A DNA stretch of 64,000 bases from Phycisphaeraceae bacterium (GTDB lineage Bacteria; Planctomycetota; Phycisphaerae; Phycisphaerales; Phycisphaeraceae). The notes beneath the pieces were generated by a model that had not been told where the DNA came from, searched no databases, and saw only the letters and a list, made by a program, of their open reading frames with translations. The position numbers were made by a program, and so were the translations under genes. Positions 43,775-51,291 of this stretch are shown in pieces. Position 1 is the first letter of the stretch, and each line of letters begins with the position of its first letter. Where the stretch lies: NCBI GenBank assembly GCA_020851735.1, contig JADZCD010000062.1:62001-126000 (forward strand), given 5' to 3'.

Positions 43775-44899
43775 TTAGCTGATTTTCACTTCGCGTCCGC
43801 CGTTTTCCGCTGAGCGGTAGACGCCGTCGAGCATCTTCTGCACCATCAGGCCATGCTCGGCCGGCGCCATGGTGGGTTTGTCGTAGAGGCAGTGATCCAC
43901 CCAGTTGCGCATTTTGCTGCGGAAATTGACGGTGAAATCGTCCGTGCCCACGTAAGCGGGAGCCTGATTGACCATGTGGCCATGGGCGTCGGTGTAGATC
44001 ATGGCTGGTTCCCAGCGGGCACCGGCCTTTTCGCCCATGATCCAGAAGTTGAACTCATCTTTCTCCAGGTGGGCGGCGAAGCTGGCTTCAATGCTCAGGG
44101 CAGCGCCGTTTTCAAAGTGGATGTGCCCGACGGCCAGGTCTTCGACGGTGTAGGTCTTGTAGTCCCAGTTGGGCCAACCGCACTTGATCTTGGTGGCTTC
44201 CTTCTTGTTGCCCATGTAGGTGAAGGTGGAGCCGACGGCGCTGACGGGCCTGGGGGAGCCCATGGCAAAGTGGGCCATTTCCAGGGCGTGGACGCCGATG
44301 TCGATCATCGGGCCGCCGCCTTGGAGGTCCTTGCGGCCGAAGACGCCCCAGTTGGGAATGCCGCGGCGGCGCAGGGCCCAGACGCGTCCGTAGAGAATCT
44401 TGCCGAACTGGCCTTCTTCCACGGCGTTTTTGATGTAGGTGGTCTTGGGGGAATAGCGGTACTGGAAGCCGATGACCAGTTTTTTGCGGTTCTTCTTGGC
44501 GGCGTTGATCATCGCCTGCGCTTCCTTGGCGTTCATGGCCATGGGCTTTTCGACGATCACGTCGGCCCCGGCGTTGGAAGCGTCGATCGAAGCCGGGGCG
44601 TGCAGCCCGTTGGGCGTGCAGACGCTCACGGCGTCGGGCTTGATGCGTGCGAGCATTTTTTTCCAGTCGGTGAAACACGCCGAAGCGGGAATCTTGAACT
44701 TCTGGGAGTGCTTAGCCATGTTGCTTTCGCTCACGTCCGCCAAGCCCACCAGCTCCACGTCGGTCATCTGCGCGAGGATGTCCATGTGCATGCCGGCGAT
44801 GCCGCCAGCCCCGATGAACGCCACACGCAATTTCTTCTGGGAACCATCGTTTGCCGAAACCGTCGCCTTGCCTGCCGCCGCTGACTTACGCTTACTCAC
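43775..44899 (-). CDS. Gfo/Idh/MocA-family oxidoreductase
   Basis: The protein (about 374 residues from the GTG at 44899) has an N-terminal NAD(P)-binding fold with V-A-F-I-G-A-G-G-I-A-G-M-H, then V-C-T-P-N-G-L-H-A and E-K-P-M-A-M-N with the conserved Lys. A C-terminal beta-sheet domain has G-G-P-M-I-D-I-G-V-H, the usual His-containing motif. Family members reduce or oxidise sugars and inositols; the substrate is unknown. The open frame extends to 45073, but the extension has no family features and the GTG has GGAG upstream. The first 25 residues (S-K-R-K-S-A-A-A) are basic and outside the domain. Confidence 0.9.
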   Translation of the reverse strand: MSKRKSAAAGKATVSANDGSQKKLRVAFIGAGGIAGMHMDILAQMTDVELVGLADVSESNMAKHSQKFKIPASACFTDWKKMLARIKPDAVSVCTPNGLHAPASIDASNAGADVIVEKPMAMNAKEAQAMINAAKKNRKKLVIGFQYRYSPKTTYIKNAVEEGQFGKILYGRVWALRRRGIPNWGVFGRKDLQGGGPMIDIGVHALEMAHFAMGSPRPVSAVGSTFTYMGNKKEATKIKCGWPNWDYKTYTVEDLAVGHIHFENGAALSIEASFAAHLEKDEFNFWIMGEKAGARWEPAMIYTDAHGHMVNQAPAYVGTDDFTVNFRSKMRNWVDHCLYDKPTMAPAEHGLMVQKMLDGVYRSAENGGREVKIS

Positions 44900-45172
44900 G
44901 GGAAGTGCTCCAGGGCCGAACGCCCGCCGAAGGTCGGCAACATCCGCCACGCTGCGGCCGTTGCCAGGGTCGGTCGGGTTGGCCTGCTTGAAGGCGGCTA
45001 TTCTGCACGGGCAACGTATAGTTTCAAGTAAGCGGCTTTTCAGACTAAAAGGCAAATGATCCTTGGTGGGCATCGTGCAAACCCGCTAGACTAACCGCGG
45101 CGCCTGCCCGACAGGCCTGCGATCCGCAGCCAAGCCCGCCCTTGGGCTGCCCCTGCGGGAAGGGATTGAGCG

Positions 45173-46324
45173 TTGCCCGACCAGGACGGAAAAAACTTGA
45201 ATTCTCCCAGCGGTAATACCTCCCAACGCCAACCGGACGTGAATTCCCCGCTGCCGGCGACCAGGCCGAATCCCGCTCCCATAGCGGGCCGTATCTCCAG
45301 ATTAAAAAACGACTTAAAGCTGCTTGCGATCTCCTGGGGCACGTCCATCACCCTGCACGCCACGCTCATTATCATCTCCCTGGTGATGGTCTGGTCGGTG
45401 GTCAATCGGCCGGAGGACAAAAGCCACATCATCCCCATCGCCCGCTTAGCAGCCGATCCGGACAAGCCGCTGCCGCTGGCCATGGCCAACCAAGACCCTG
45501 CCGCGGTTCCTGTTGCCGCCGCTGCGGTTTCGGCCGCGGCGCCAAGCCCGTTAAGCAGCGCCGGCCCCTCGGCCTTTGGTTCGGCGGGCGCCTCGGGACA
45601 GGCCGAGGCCTCGGCCACCGGCAGCGTGCAGTTACTGGCGCCCCCCGCCACTGCCGCTTCGCCGCTGAGCGCGCCCAAATCCGCGGAGGCCATCTCGCCC
45701 TTGGCGGCCACGTTCTACGGCACCGGCGGCAACGCCAAGCAGATCATCTACGTCGTCGATGCGTCCGGCTCATTGATCGACACCCTCGACTACGTGCTGG
45801 CGGAGTTGCGCCGCTCGATCAGTGAACTCCGCCCGCCGCAGACGTTCACGATCCTCTTCTTCCAGGGCGATCAGGTCCTCGAGCCGCCGCCGGCGGGACC
45901 TAAACAAACGATTCCGTCCGTCTTTAAACAGGTGCTGGCCTGGATCGGGCCGGAGGCGGGCAATGTCCGGGCCAAGGGAGGCAGCTCTCCGCTGGCGGCG
46001 CTTGAAAAAGCCTTTGCCTATGAGCCGGACCTGATCTTCCTGCTCTCGGACAACATCACCGGGCGCGGGCCCTACCAGATCAACCAGCAACGCCTGCTGG
46101 AGCAGATCGGCCGGATGAACCGCGCCAACGTGAAGATCAACACGCTCCAGTTCGTCTATCCCGATCCCTTGGCGACCCACGGAACCAAAGGCACGCTGGA
46201 ATTGATTGCCGCGCAAAGCGGAGGGATGTACCGGTTTGTGCCGGCCGCTGATCTGAAAACCCCCGGAAGTCCCGGAACCCCCGGAAGCCCGGCAAGTCCC
46301 GGCGCGGCCACGGAAACACCCTGA
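45173..46324 (+). CDS. TonB-like anchored von Willebrand A protein
   Basis: The 383-residue protein has a cytoplasmic head of about 50 residues, one membrane helix (about 52-77), an Ala/Pro/Ser-rich linker (about 95-178) and a von Willebrand A domain (about 190-355). The metal site D-A-S-G-S is at 196-200, with L-L-S-D-N later. The helix contains S58-x-x-x-H62, the Ser-His pair that TonB (S16, H20) and TolA (S18, H22) use to contact ExbB/ExbD or TolQ/TolR. ExbB- and ExbD-like genes follow directly. The inferred role is an energy transducer or PMF-regulated adhesion device with a VWA output domain. The start is TTG 45173, nine bases after GGAAGGG. The C-terminus is a P-G-S-P-rich tail. Confidence 0.8.
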   Translation: MPDQDGKNLNSPSGNTSQRQPDVNSPLPATRPNPAPIAGRISRLKNDLKLLAISWGTSITLHATLIIISLVMVWSVVNRPEDKSHIIPIARLAADPDKPLPLAMANQDPAAVPVAAAAVSAAAPSPLSSAGPSAFGSAGASGQAEASATGSVQLLAPPATAASPLSAPKSAEAISPLAATFYGTGGNAKQIIYVVDASGSLIDTLDYVLAELRRSISELRPPQTFTILFFQGDQVLEPPPAGPKQTIPSVFKQVLAWIGPEAGNVRAKGGSSPLAALEKAFAYEPDLIFLLSDNITGRGPYQINQQRLLEQIGRMNRANVKINTLQFVYPDPLATHGTKGTLELIAAQSGGMYRFVPAADLKTPGSPGTPGSPASPGAATETP

Positions 46325-46470
46325 CACGCGGTCGGCGGCTATGAGGTGAATTGGGGACAAGTCATGGCCCATGCGCGGGCCATCCCTTGCCGTCAACCCG
46401 TAGTATCCTTATGACGATCAGGTTTCGCAGCCGTCCAAACGACGGCGCCAGCGATGACAAAGGAGTGGAC

Positions 46471-47298
46471 ATGCGCGCAAGATGGTGGATCGCCGGAACA
46501 ACCGCGGTGGCTCTGGCCGGCAGCCTTTTGCCGGCGGCGGCGATGGACAGTGGCTGGGGACTGCTCACCTTAGGCCAGGCCCAACCGCCGAACATGTCGT
46601 TTGCCAGGATGTTCCTTTGGCGGGACACGCTCATCGGGCTGCTGGTGATTCAGTTGCTTCTGCTGATGTCGCTGACCACGGTGGCGCTGATCATCCACAA
46701 CCTGCTGCGTTACCGGCGGAGCGCGGTGCTGCCCCCCACTTTCTACGCCCGGATGGAGCGTCTGCTGGCGCAGAAGAACTACCGCGAGGCGGTGGCGACG
46801 GCCAATGCCGAGCCGAGCCTGCTGGGGCAGTTGACCAAGTCAGCTCTAAACGAATCGCCGCGTGGCTTTGCGGCCATGGAATACGCCGTCGAGCAGGCGG
46901 CCGAGGGCTTGGCGGGGCAGATGGTCCGCACGCTGGAATATCTGAACGTCATGGGCAACCTCGGGCCGATGCTCGGGCTGTTCGGCACGGTGTACGGCAT
47001 GATCGTGGCGTTTCAGGAACTGGTGGCCGCGGGGGGGCGGCCTGATCCGGGCCAACTGGCCTCGGGGATTTCCACTTCCTTAGTCACCACTTTCTGGGGC
47101 CTGGTGGTGGCGATTCCCGCCCTGGCGGCACATGCGATGATCCGCAGCAAGGTGGAGAGTCTGGCTGCGGAAGGCGCGGAACTGGCCGGCCGGCTGATCC
47201 AACCCCTGCGTCCAGCCGCACCGGCCGGCACGGCTGTGCTGCCGGAAGAGCCCCGTAATTCCGTGGTTCCGGGGGGTGGGAACGTACCCCCCGGCTGA
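46471..47298 (+). CDS. ExbB/TolQ/MotA-type proton channel protein
   Basis: The protein (275 residues from ATG 46471, with AAGGAG upstream) has a hydrophobic, signal-like N-terminus, then a helix L-I-G-L-L-V-I-Q-L-L-L-L-M-S-L, a cytoplasmic part, and two C-terminal helices: G-N-L-G-P-M-L-G-L-F-G-T-V-Y-G-M and S-T-S-L-V-T-T-F-W-G-L-V-V-A-I-P-A-L-A. These are the conserved proton-channel features of the MotA/TolQ/ExbB family. It should form the inner membrane channel with the ExbD proteins encoded downstream. The stop codon lies inside a CCCCCGGC palindrome whose centre reads GGCTGAGCC instead of GGCAGAGCC, so the element supplies the end of the protein. Confidence 0.9.
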   Translation: MRARWWIAGTTAVALAGSLLPAAAMDSGWGLLTLGQAQPPNMSFARMFLWRDTLIGLLVIQLLLLMSLTTVALIIHNLLRYRRSAVLPPTFYARMERLLAQKNYREAVATANAEPSLLGQLTKSALNESPRGFAAMEYAVEQAAEGLAGQMVRTLEYLNVMGNLGPMLGLFGTVYGMIVAFQELVAAGGRPDPGQLASGISTSLVTTFWGLVVAIPALAAHAMIRSKVESLAAEGAELAGRLIQPLRPAAPAGTAVLPEEPRNSVVPGGGNVPPG

Positions 47299-47308
47299 GC
47301 CGGGGGCT
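47284..47308 (+). repeat. CCCCCGGC palindrome forming the exbB end
   Basis: GTACCCCCCGGCTGAGCC plus GGGGGCT, followed by GAAACGGCGGAGGAA. The A-to-T change in the centre creates the exbB stop codon. Confidence 0.85.
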
Positions 47309-47379
47309 GAAACGGCGGAGGAATCGCGGTGATTCTACTTCCGGGAGTTCCGGGTGTGATTCCGGGGGGACAGTAAAAG

Positions 47380-47407
47380 CACACAGCACGCTATGCGATG
47401 CTGTGTG
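47380..47407. repeat. CACACAGCA palindrome, copy 3
   Basis: CACACAGCA and TGCTGTGTG surround CGCTATGCGA, followed by GCACCC. It lies in the gap between exbB and exbD. Confidence 0.8.
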
Positions 47408-47468
47408 GCACCCAATGAATCAACTTCCGGGGATTCCGGGGGGATTCCGGGGGGATGAGGAAGTCGGC

Positions 47469-47999
47469 ATGATCCGAGCGCCGCGCAGTCGAGCCAACGT
47501 CAACAGTTGCCAGCTTAACCTGGCTGCGATGTTGGACATTGTTTTTCAGTTGATCGTCTTTTTCATGTTGATCAGCAACATCGGGGCGGAGGAACACCCT
47601 CTGCTGGTGGTGCCTGAGCTCAAGGACCCGCAGACCTCGCAGACCGAGCAACTCGACCGCATTTACGTGAACGTGATGCCCAAGGAATACGACAGCACGC
47701 GCACTTCCGGGGGCGGAGACGGCCAAGAGTATCTGGATTGGCCTGGCCAGGCGGTGGCGATCAAGGTGGGGTTAGAGACCTTCAGCCCGCAAAAGCTGGA
47801 GGACGTCACCGCGGCCCTGGCCGCCGGCGTGGGGCGGAACCCCAAGGTTCGCGTGCTGGTGCGGGCTGACGCGGCGTTGCACTTTGACTCGGTGCAGCCG
47901 GTGCTGGCCGCCATCGAAGCGGCCGGGGTTCGTGACGTGGGCTTGGTGGCCCTGGCCCGGGAACGGGCGGGGGCGGAGTCGACAATCTCCGCGAAATAA
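47469..47999 (+). CDS. ExbD/TolR-type protein 1
   Basis: The protein (176 residues from ATG 47469, preceded by GAGGAAG) has a short cytoplasmic part, one membrane helix with the conserved proton-carrying Asp (A-M-L-D23-I-V-F-Q-L-I-V-F-F) and a periplasmic domain ending V-R-V-L-V-R-A-D-A and V-Q-P-V-L-A-A-I-E. It is predicted to form the peripheral proton pathway with ExbB. The longer frame from 47403 enters a palindrome repeat. A CTTCCGGGGGCGG module lies inside the coding region at about 47704. The neighbouring ExbD-like gene starts 18 bases after its stop. Confidence 0.88.
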   Translation: MIRAPRSRANVNSCQLNLAAMLDIVFQLIVFFMLISNIGAEEHPLLVVPELKDPQTSQTEQLDRIYVNVMPKEYDSTRTSGGGDGQEYLDWPGQAVAIKVGLETFSPQKLEDVTAALAAGVGRNPKVRVLVRADAALHFDSVQPVLAAIEAAGVRDVGLVALARERAGAESTISAK

Positions 48000-48016
48000 C
48001 GGGAGTTAAGCGCAGC

Positions 48017-48544
48017 GTGAACGCCGGCAGCCAAGTAAATGATCCGCATATCCGCGCTGGGCAGATGCGCCGGCCCAGGCGCTGGTCCGGGCCGGCCGAC
48101 GTGCGTCTGAACGTCACCGCCATGCTGGACGTGATGTTCCAGCTGCTTATTTTTTTCGTCGTGACCGCCGGCGTGATGCTCGAAGAAGGGATGCTCAGCA
48201 CCCGACTGTTGCCCCAGCACACCGGAGCCATGGGCGACGCGGTGCTGCCGCGGCAGCCGCTGCGCATCGTCGTCGAGGCCAGGGACGTGGCGGGCTATGC
48301 CCTGCGCATCGAGCACCAGGAACAGCAGCCGGCCGACTTTCGCGCTCTCTGCCAGGCGCTTGAGGAACTGCAGTGGGACCCGGCCCGGAAACGGTCGGGA
48401 GCGTACAAGCCCGATCACCCGCTGCTGATTGAGCCGGGCGCAAAAGTGCGCTGGCAGCACGTGGTCAACGCCTTCAACGCCGCGGTCAAGGCGGGGTACA
48501 CCGACGTCAGCTTCAGCCCACCCCCGCCGCCGGCCGGCCCCTGA
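48017..48544 (+). CDS. ExbD/TolR-type protein 2
   Basis: The 175-residue protein is a second ExbD with Asp38 in the helix A-M-L-D-V-M-F-Q-L-L-I-F-F-V-V-T-A. The periplasmic part has L-R-I-V-V-E-A-R-D and a Pro-rich end (S-P-P-P-P-P). The start is GTG 48017. Two different ExbD genes after one ExbB fit a channel with mixed ExbD subunits. No TonB or TolA gene follows; instead a TPR protein does. It is probably cotranscribed with the genes before and after. Confidence 0.87.
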   Translation: MNAGSQVNDPHIRAGQMRRPRRWSGPADVRLNVTAMLDVMFQLLIFFVVTAGVMLEEGMLSTRLLPQHTGAMGDAVLPRQPLRIVVEARDVAGYALRIEHQEQQPADFRALCQALEELQWDPARKRSGAYKPDHPLLIEPGAKVRWQHVVNAFNAAVKAGYTDVSFSPPPPPAGP

Positions 48545-48570
48545 TTCATCCTCGCGAGGTCAGCCCACCG

Positions 48571-51291
48571 ATGCCCCGACTATCTTTCTACCTGTTTCTG
48601 TTCCTTAGCCTCTGCGGCAGCCTCTCCGCCCGCGCGCAAACCGACGCCCAAGCCGACGCCGCGTGGGAGCAGGTTCACCAGCTCCGTGCCCGCTACGCCC
48701 AGCCTGACCTTCCGGCCGAGGATCGCTTTGCCGCGCTAGACCAGGCCCTTGACGGCTTGCGCGCTCTCGTGGCGCAATTCCCCCAGCACTGGCAGCGACC
48801 GGTGTGGCAGACGGAATTAGCTGACCTTTTGCTCTACGAATGGCTGACCGGCCCGCGGCAGCACGCGGACCTGTTCGTGGAGTTCGGCCTGCCCACCACC
48901 GCGCAGCGTCAAGCGGTGGAGCAAGCCAGCCTCGAATCCTTCACCGCGCTGCGCGAAGCCCGGCGAGCTTTCGATCGCCTGTCCAAGGAACTGCCCGCCC
49001 AGCCCGATCACGAAGCCCAGCGCGTCCAGACGCAGAAGTGGCCCCTCTGGCTGGCCTACCGCGATCACAACCTGCCGATCCTGACCGCCAAAGCCGCGCT
49101 TTTGCTTTCACTATTGCCCGCGGACAGTCCAGCCTTAAAAAAAATCGCCGCCGCCCCACCCTGGTTGCCCGAGGCTACGAACCTTACGCTGGACAACGTG
49201 CGCCGGCGTCTGCGCGAAGACCTGGCCATCGACAATCTTGAGCCTCTGACGGGCCAGGAAATTCCCGCCCCCCTGCGTGCCGAAACCACCGGGCTGTTGG
49301 CCCGCGCGCTGCTTGGTTTAGGCCGCGGCGAGCAAGCCCAGCCTTTACTTGCGGAGCTGCAGGCACGCAATGATCTGTTGGGCTTTACCGCCACGCTCGT
49401 CCGCAGCCGCGTGCTCTTTGGTCAAAAGGATTTCGAAGCCGCGCTGCAACTGTTGCGTGAACCTGCGCAGAGTTCGTTCCTGCAAAGCGATCCCCTCTGC
49501 CGTCTGCTGCTGGCCGATGCCATGTTCCTCCAGCACCGGGCGCAGCCGGGGCACGCCCAGGATCCGTCGGCTGCCTATCTTCCCTACGATCAACTGCTGG
49601 GCGCTGCCGACCTCGCCCCGGACCTCCGCGCCGGTCTGGGCCTTTGGCTGGGAAAACGCTGGCTGGAAGCGGATCCCGACGCTACCGACCCAAAACTTCT
49701 TCCCCCACTGCTGTTGTCCGCCGTCGCGCAAGCCAATCTCAATCAGGCTCGCGTGCTGGCCAGACCGCAGACAAATCCATCCGCCGCCGCCAGCCCATCC
49801 CCCGCCACGGGGCCTGCTTCCCCCGCGCTGCCCTACTACCAACGAGCGACCGCGCTCTACGAAAACCTTTTAGCTCGCCCCGAGCTGCCCGATTCTCTGC
49901 GCGCCGTGGCCATGTCGGACCTGGGCTGGGGCCTTTATGAACAAAATCCCTCGGACGTAACCCAACGGCTTCGCGTCGCCTTCTTGTGGACCGACTTGGC
50001 CAAACGCTTCCCCTCCCAGCCGATCTCCGATCCGGCCATTACGCATGCCGTGGCGCTCTTGCGCCAGCTCAGGTCAGCCGCGCCCGCGTCACCCGAGCAG
50101 CGTCAGAAAATCGACCTGGCCTATCAACAAGCGGTGGACGTTCTCTTCTCCCTCTATGCCGACAGCCCCGCGGCCGACGAAGAGCGAATCTATTACGCCA
50201 GCGAGGTCTATGAGCCGTCCGGGCGCTTTACCCAAGCGGCTGAACTCTACAACCAGGTGCCGGCCGACCACCCAAAATATCTGCTCGCCCAGGTCGCCCG
50301 CCTCTACGCCCTCTGGCACGCCGCCACGGCGGCTGGGCCGACCACGCAGGCGCCGGATCTCCAAGCCCTCGCTCAGCAGGCCAAGGAGCTCGACCAGCGC
50401 GCCGCCGAGCTGCGCCAACGCAATCACAATCCCAACGCCCAGGCTGTCGCCATAGACGCCCAGGCGCGCGTCCGCTTGCTCCTGGCGGATGTGGCGTTGA
50501 CGGAAAAAAATTACGCCGCGGTGGAAGCCGTCCTGGCGGACTTGGAAGCCCTGGTCGCCAAACAGCCGGACCTGCTCCGCCCGACGCTGGCTAAACGCGT
50601 CCTCGCCCTCCAGGAGTCCGGACGCTGGCTGGATGCGCTGGCAGCCGCCGGACGATTTCTGGACGCCTTCCCCCAGGAAGCCGCTCCCGTCCTCTGCCCC
50701 TTGCTGGATCGTCTGGACAATCAATTCCAGCCCATCACCACGGTCGTCATGGATGGCCGGACTGCCCAAGCGATGCTTCAGAGTGCTGGAGAGTTGGCGG
50801 AACGGGCGTTAGAACCCCAATTAAAGCTCAACCTCGCCCCCCTTCAAAGACAATCCCTGGAATTCATGCTCGCCCGCGCCTTGATTGCACGCAGCCGGAA
50901 CGACCAGGCAATCGCCCTGCTCGACCGCCTGCTTGCCCAGCCCCCCCAGGATGCCCCGTCCTTGGGCCGCCTGGCGGAACTCTGCTTCCTGGCTGAGGAA
51001 CTCAACCCCGCCTACCAGAATGCCGCCCGCGATCTGTATACCCGCTTGATTCAAGGCTTAAAGCCCGATCAGCCCTGGTGGTGGGCCGCCTGGATGCGCC
51101 GCCTGCAGATCCAGGATCAGCAGGCCGGCACGAACACCGATCAGGAGATTTTTCTGGCTGTAAAGCAATTGGAAATGATTGACCCCGCCCTCGGCCGCGA
51201 CCCCTTCCAGAGCGAGTTCCGCCGCCTGGCTTCCCGCCACGAGCCCCCTCTTTCGCCCCCGGCGTCTTCCTCCCCAAACCCTGATCCCTAA
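48571..51291 (+). CDS. Large secreted TPR-like protein
   Basis: The 906-residue protein starts with a signal peptide (L-S-F-Y-L-F-L-F-L-S-L-C-G-S-L-S-A-R-A, cleaved near A-R-A). The rest is a long array of helical pairs with TPR character, for example R-A-L-L-G-L-G-R-G-E-Q-A-Q-P-L-L and Y-Y-Q-R-A-T-A-L-Y-E-N-L-L. No catalytic domain is visible. It starts 26 bp after the second ExbD gene and is likely the periplasmic partner of the VWA-ExbBD system. This is an inference from position and predicted export. The C-terminus is Pro/Ser-rich. Confidence 0.8.
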   Translation: MPRLSFYLFLFLSLCGSLSARAQTDAQADAAWEQVHQLRARYAQPDLPAEDRFAALDQALDGLRALVAQFPQHWQRPVWQTELADLLLYEWLTGPRQHADLFVEFGLPTTAQRQAVEQASLESFTALREARRAFDRLSKELPAQPDHEAQRVQTQKWPLWLAYRDHNLPILTAKAALLLSLLPADSPALKKIAAAPPWLPEATNLTLDNVRRRLREDLAIDNLEPLTGQEIPAPLRAETTGLLARALLGLGRGEQAQPLLAELQARNDLLGFTATLVRSRVLFGQKDFEAALQLLREPAQSSFLQSDPLCRLLLADAMFLQHRAQPGHAQDPSAAYLPYDQLLGAADLAPDLRAGLGLWLGKRWLEADPDATDPKLLPPLLLSAVAQANLNQARVLARPQTNPSAAASPSPATGPASPALPYYQRATALYENLLARPELPDSLRAVAMSDLGWGLYEQNPSDVTQRLRVAFLWTDLAKRFPSQPISDPAITHAVALLRQLRSAAPASPEQRQKIDLAYQQAVDVLFSLYADSPAADEERIYYASEVYEPSGRFTQAAELYNQVPADHPKYLLAQVARLYALWHAATAAGPTTQAPDLQALAQQAKELDQRAAELRQRNHNPNAQAVAIDAQARVRLLLADVALTEKNYAAVEAVLADLEALVAKQPDLLRPTLAKRVLALQESGRWLDALAAAGRFLDAFPQEAAPVLCPLLDRLDNQFQPITTVVMDGRTAQAMLQSAGELAERALEPQLKLNLAPLQRQSLEFMLARALIARSRNDQAIALLDRLLAQPPQDAPSLGRLAELCFLAEELNPAYQNAARDLYTRLIQGLKPDQPWWWAAWMRRLQIQDQQAGTNTDQEIFLAVKQLEMIDPALGRDPFQSEFRRLASRHEPPLSPPASSSPNPDP

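Follow-up and report, generated by a model that had tools for sequence, protein, structure and literature searches.

What does an ExbB/ExbD motor drive when a VWA protein is encoded beside it and no TonB gene is found in the operon? The question is raised by five co-directional genes on the plus strand of the window, the 64,000-nucleotide stretch of a Phycisphaeraceae genome analyzed here. In the order given by the initial annotation, which is upheld, they are the VWA gene (45173–46324, TTG start, placed from the ORF list, the alignment, and the predicted structure), an ExbB/TolQ-like motor subunit (46471–47298), two ExbD/TolR-like subunits (47403–47999 and 48017–48544), and a gene for a putatively secreted 906-residue TPR alpha-solenoid (48571–51291). 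We propose, with a probability of roughly 0.78, that the VWA protein is an ExbBD-driven force transducer in the role of TonB or TolA. This reading is supported by the conserved core of the operon, the Ser-His pair, the proton-path residues, the VWA fold, and the lack of TonB in the operon. A scan for promoters and terminators gave nothing better than shuffled sequences. The adjoining gene, divergent from the VWA gene and encoding a Gfo/Idh/MocA-type oxidoreductase (43775–45073), stays beside the operon in several relatives.

The role in question had been proposed for this protein from its sequence; sequence comparison and the predicted fold now support it, but as an idea it is not new, having been predicted already in 2025. 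Williams-Jones et al. (Mol Biol Evol msaf138, PMC12204202) described a class of vWA proteins that are tethered to the inner membrane and have a helix, linker, and motor box of the TonB/TolA kind. The genes of this class, found in PVC bacteria, adjoin tolQ-like genes, tolR-like pairs, and TPR genes; the role was proposed for planctomycetes and other phyla, and complexes predicted with AF3 put the His on the TonB/TolA site of the motor. The class rests on prediction, with no experimental phenotype reported in that study, and our literature search found no experiment on vWA force transducers.

The VWA protein of the window consists of a polar cytoplasmic head (residues ~1–45), a transmembrane (TM) helix (~54–77), a linker (~78–185), and the VWA domain (~186–362). 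In the predicted structure S58 and H62 lie within a helix modelled at residues 38–77, the low-complexity linker has low pLDDT, and a well-folded C-terminal domain lies beyond it. Across the alignment of homologues, the median spacing between H62 and D196 is 120, and the Pro fraction of the linker is 0.106. The protein matches neither TonB (Pfam, NCBIfam) nor TolA (Pfam), and its sequence alone gave no VWA match above the cut-off in Pfam or NCBIfam. The VWA_3 family of Pfam is matched by 24 of the 35 members of its alignment, and comparison of the predicted structure with the PDB by Foldseek yielded the inter-alpha-trypsin inhibitor heavy chains as the best match (E 2.8e-10), with integrin I-domains also among the matches. 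Judged by this model, the C-terminal domain is a true VWA fold with a MIDAS. The metal site that had been described as intact is D196-A-S-G-S200, encoded at 45758–45772, and the remaining MIDAS positions are also filled in the window protein, so that D196, S198, S200, S271, and D293 are all present, with Ser replacing the usual Thr. Every position of the DxSxS motif is kept in 95 of the 98 homologues linked to a motor, and the MIDAS is degraded in some paralogues.

In TonB, the SHLS motif of the membrane helix is formed by S16, H20, L27, and S31. The Ser-His pair of the window protein lies in S58-I-T-L-H62, encoded at 45344–45358. Among the 98 motor-linked homologues, three of which are fragments, the His is present in all 95 complete sequences, and the position of S58 is occupied by Ser in 86 and by Ala in eight. 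As a background, we considered 253 ORFs from the same loci having a single N-terminal TM-like segment; the S-x-x-x-H pattern occurs in four of them, and three of the four are the window protein itself and two proteins encoded at VWA loci. Conservation of S58 and H62 in these alignments is thus above chance, with the His invariant and the Ser nearly so, and the loss of both residues among homologues, which would have counted against the proposed role, did not occur. The position equivalent to L27, counted from the His, is Ala in 62 and Gly in 17 of the 98 homologues, and the one equivalent to S31 is mostly Val or Thr, so SHLS survives only as its Ser-His half. The suggestion that the protein follows the TonB/TolA helix plan therefore holds for the placement and conservation of S58 and H62, but not for the L and S of the motif. 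A candidate motor box, or D-box-like segment, may follow the helix at residues 84–102 (45422–45478). With the family consensus IIPxARLSxTPGxPL, it occupies the place of the ExbD-binding D-box of TonB; it fits the published pattern (PMC10907165) loosely and has no strand in the monomer model.

Both kinds of motor subunit are readily identified by Pfam, ExbB with E 1.4e-25 and the two ExbDs with E 2.6e-14 and 5.4e-16, respectively, and their best NCBIfam scores are to TolQ and TolR. The ExbB ORF opens at 46351 (46351–47298), but translation more likely begins at the ATG of 46471, which has AAAGGAG in front of it. The protein has a signal-like extra segment at the N-terminus and matches solved TolQ and ExbB structures. 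Its T213 and T247, which we took as the pore threonines, are conserved in 87/87 sequences. The TM Asp (Asp45 in the first ExbD, Asp38 in the second) is found in every sequence of either paralogue (83/83 and 84/84), and in alignments with solved ExbD it falls on NVTPFIDV. Since the proton-path residues are conserved in ExbB and both ExbDs, the motor of the cluster looks active from its sequence.

These residues bear on two other interpretations of the cluster. In a second vWA class proposed in the 2025 study (PMC12204202), the protein is itself a stator partner, with a helix that carries a proton-binding Asp and inserts into the TolQ ring. The adjacent VWA and ExbB genes of the window speak for a dimeric partner of this kind, but the VWA helix has a Ser-His pair and no Asp, and two ExbDs with an intact Asp are encoded beside it; already contradicted by the sequence, this explanation is extremely improbable. 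Alternatively, ExbB, the ExbDs, the VWA protein, and the TPR protein might form a complex that does not pull but serves, for instance, to sense or secrete, and the His would then be used for assembly only. The tandem VWA genes and extra TPR proteins of many relatives (see below) suggest a large complex and could be taken in this sense. The full conservation of the proton path, as in an active motor, argues against it, and we regard such a function as unlikely.

The transducer reading agrees with the distribution of the operon. Homologues of the VWA protein were found in 97 of 101 genomes, comprising the window's own and relatives of the same family or order, and a profile of the protein had hits in 245 of 292 genomes of the phylum, some of these hits being to the VWA domain alone. 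We read the gene order at two overlapping sets of about 40 and 80 loci. Leaving aside the loci truncated by a contig end, nearly all keep the core VWA-ExbB-ExbD-ExbD order, whose conservation in planctomycetes was one of the checks suggested at the outset; within the family of the window the TPR gene mostly follows it. A downstream ExbB gene is present for 97 distinct VWA homologues and absent for 13 in which no contig end is close. More distant planctomycete classes have the same layout and an [S/A]-x-x-x-H helix.

The operon contains no TonB gene, so the case of TonB always accompanying these genes, which would have spoken against the proposed role, did not occur. The absence of TonB noted in the initial annotation is thus true of the operon, but not of the genome. 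Pfam finds neither TonB_C nor TonB_2 in the genome; the conclusion that it has no TonB was rejected, however, when a 299-residue TonB-family protein was found on another contig, C24 (L160:7631–8530, minus strand; TIGR01352 with 29.9 bits against a cut-off of 27.1). Its helix has A-x-x-x-H, and its gene lies beside the third ExbD of the genome (L160:8661–9122), which has no adjoining ExbB. On contig C37 a lone ExbB-like gene (L075:8941–9576) lies between glycogen phosphorylase-like and phytoene synthase-like genes, without an ExbD, and contig C6 carries flagellar MotAB genes. TonB_C was detected in 44 of the 101 sampled genomes, where it coexists with the VWA system; among the matches listed, it is nearly always encoded at a distance from the VWA genes. 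One locus with TonB_C and VWA within ~6 kb (G063:C19) was rejected as a main operon, being a second copy with a different gene order.

A TonB-family protein with an A-x-x-x-H helix next to an ExbD, and the presence of TonB_C in 44/101 genomes, could mean that the real transducer is such a protein encoded elsewhere, for example beside the third ExbD, and that the VWA protein is an accessory, assembly, or regulatory subunit. However, an ExbD gene of its own adjoins the TonB-family gene on C24, and C37 carries a further, separate ExbB-like gene. The VWA protein has the motor-docking His, an invariant residue for which an accessory subunit would have no need, and its operon is kept in most of the listed relatives without TonB_C, with the reservation that Pfam can miss a divergent TonB. 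We consider the accessory role quite unlikely. Given the TonB-family gene in the genome and the TonB_C counts, the VWA system is a parallel one with its own motor and does not replace TonB in the cell.

Proteins of the TPR type accompany the operon in more than one form. The model of the TPR protein of the window is an all-helical solenoid (mean pLDDT 87.7), and its N-terminus resembles a signal peptide. In 22 of 36 complete loci of relatives, and in most relatives of the same family, another gene of ~1.1 kb lies between the VWA and ExbB genes (for instance, L038:6906–8102, L042:6910–7953, and L061:5896–6939). We considered whether it could be a hidden TonB and rejected this, its product being a secreted TPR-like protein with a weak match to YbgF/CpoB, below the cut-off. 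The window lacks this gene, and no copy turned up when one relative's version was searched against the genome, a search run without a positive control. We found no literature linking TtpC/TonB2 with TPR proteins.

Of the compared loci, 13 carry VWA genes in tandem. In several of these pairs the copy proximal to the motor keeps the Ser-His pair but only part of the metal site, which is better preserved in the other copy. In the pairs at L056, L058, L092, L098, L105, and L108, the motor-proximal copy often has Gly or Ala at the Thr position of the MIDAS. At L199 and L207–L210, no ExbB was found beside the VWA genes, whose products retain the [S/A]-x-x-x-H helix; this retention suggests that they share a motor encoded elsewhere.

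Judged against its published description, and from sequence and predicted structure, the cluster can be placed in the predicted vWA force-transducer class, since every feature compared is found here except for the full SHLS motif, of which half is kept, and the motor box, for which there is a loosely fitting candidate. Like the Tichowtungia-type proteins of this class (PMC12204202), the window protein has a TM helix with Ser and His, a disordered linker of ~100 residues, and a C-terminal VWA domain, and its gene adjoins a tolQ-like gene, an unlike tolR-like pair, and a TPR gene in a planctomycete. It differs in that the L and S of SHLS are not kept and in that the VWA gene, often downstream of the motor genes in the class, is upstream here.

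The better-known motors resemble the cluster in part. With TonB-ExbB-ExbD it shares the N-terminal S-x-x-x-H helix, the linker, the periplasmic end domain, and the ExbB/ExbD motor, but it has VWA instead of TonB_C as the end domain and two unlike ExbDs, and its genome yielded neither the barrel nor the plug of a TonB-dependent receptor. The scores of the motor subunits, best against TolQ and TolR, and the TPR partner, which recalls CpoB, bring it near the Tol-Pal system (TolA-TolQ-TolR), whereas the TolA C-terminal domain is missing and TolB_N was not found in the genome. The Agl-Glt gliding machinery of Myxococcus combines a TolQR-type motor driven by the proton motive force with the VWA adhesin CglB. 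A motor of this type and a VWA protein are present here as well, but CglB is a surface adhesin, the VWA protein of the cluster would be a motor-bound anchor, and no Glt proteins were identified.

We suggest that ExbB and ExbD form a proton motor of the 5:2 type, with the two unlike ExbDs making up the dimer, and that the VWA protein, anchored in the inner membrane, is the motor's own transducer. Its single helix would dock outside the ExbB ring through Ser58 and His62, the conserved stretch that follows it probably binds ExbD through the latter's periplasmic domains, and the low-complexity linker of ~100 residues would reach into the periplasm. There, the VWA domain with its metal site may grip and release a partner as the motor turns, the motion being proton-driven and the gripping metal-dependent in this proposal. 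Because TPR proteins travel with the operon, they are the best candidates for this partner, which would most likely be a co-encoded secreted TPR protein or an envelope complex organized by TPR proteins. Going further, one could imagine a separate envelope force system of planctomycetes, in which an asymmetric motor pulls a metal-gated VWA "clutch" on TPR scaffolds, tandem VWA proteins are specialized, one having the full metal site and the motor-proximal one the Ser-His pair with a degraded site, and VWA proteins encoded far from ExbB share the motor in a TonB-like manner. Taken as a whole, this extended scheme is speculative and, in our estimate, improbable.

As the published class is a prediction only, the broad conservation data and the clear gene set reported here can help in choosing a tractable species, and the invariant His offers a one-residue test of the transducer role. 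If this role is true, ExbBD/TolQR motors would power other processes besides the import of nutrients and the tethering of the outer membrane, and would do so through a transducer whose end domain is unrelated to those of TonB and TolA, in a system that is widespread in planctomycetes, bacteria with an unusual envelope.
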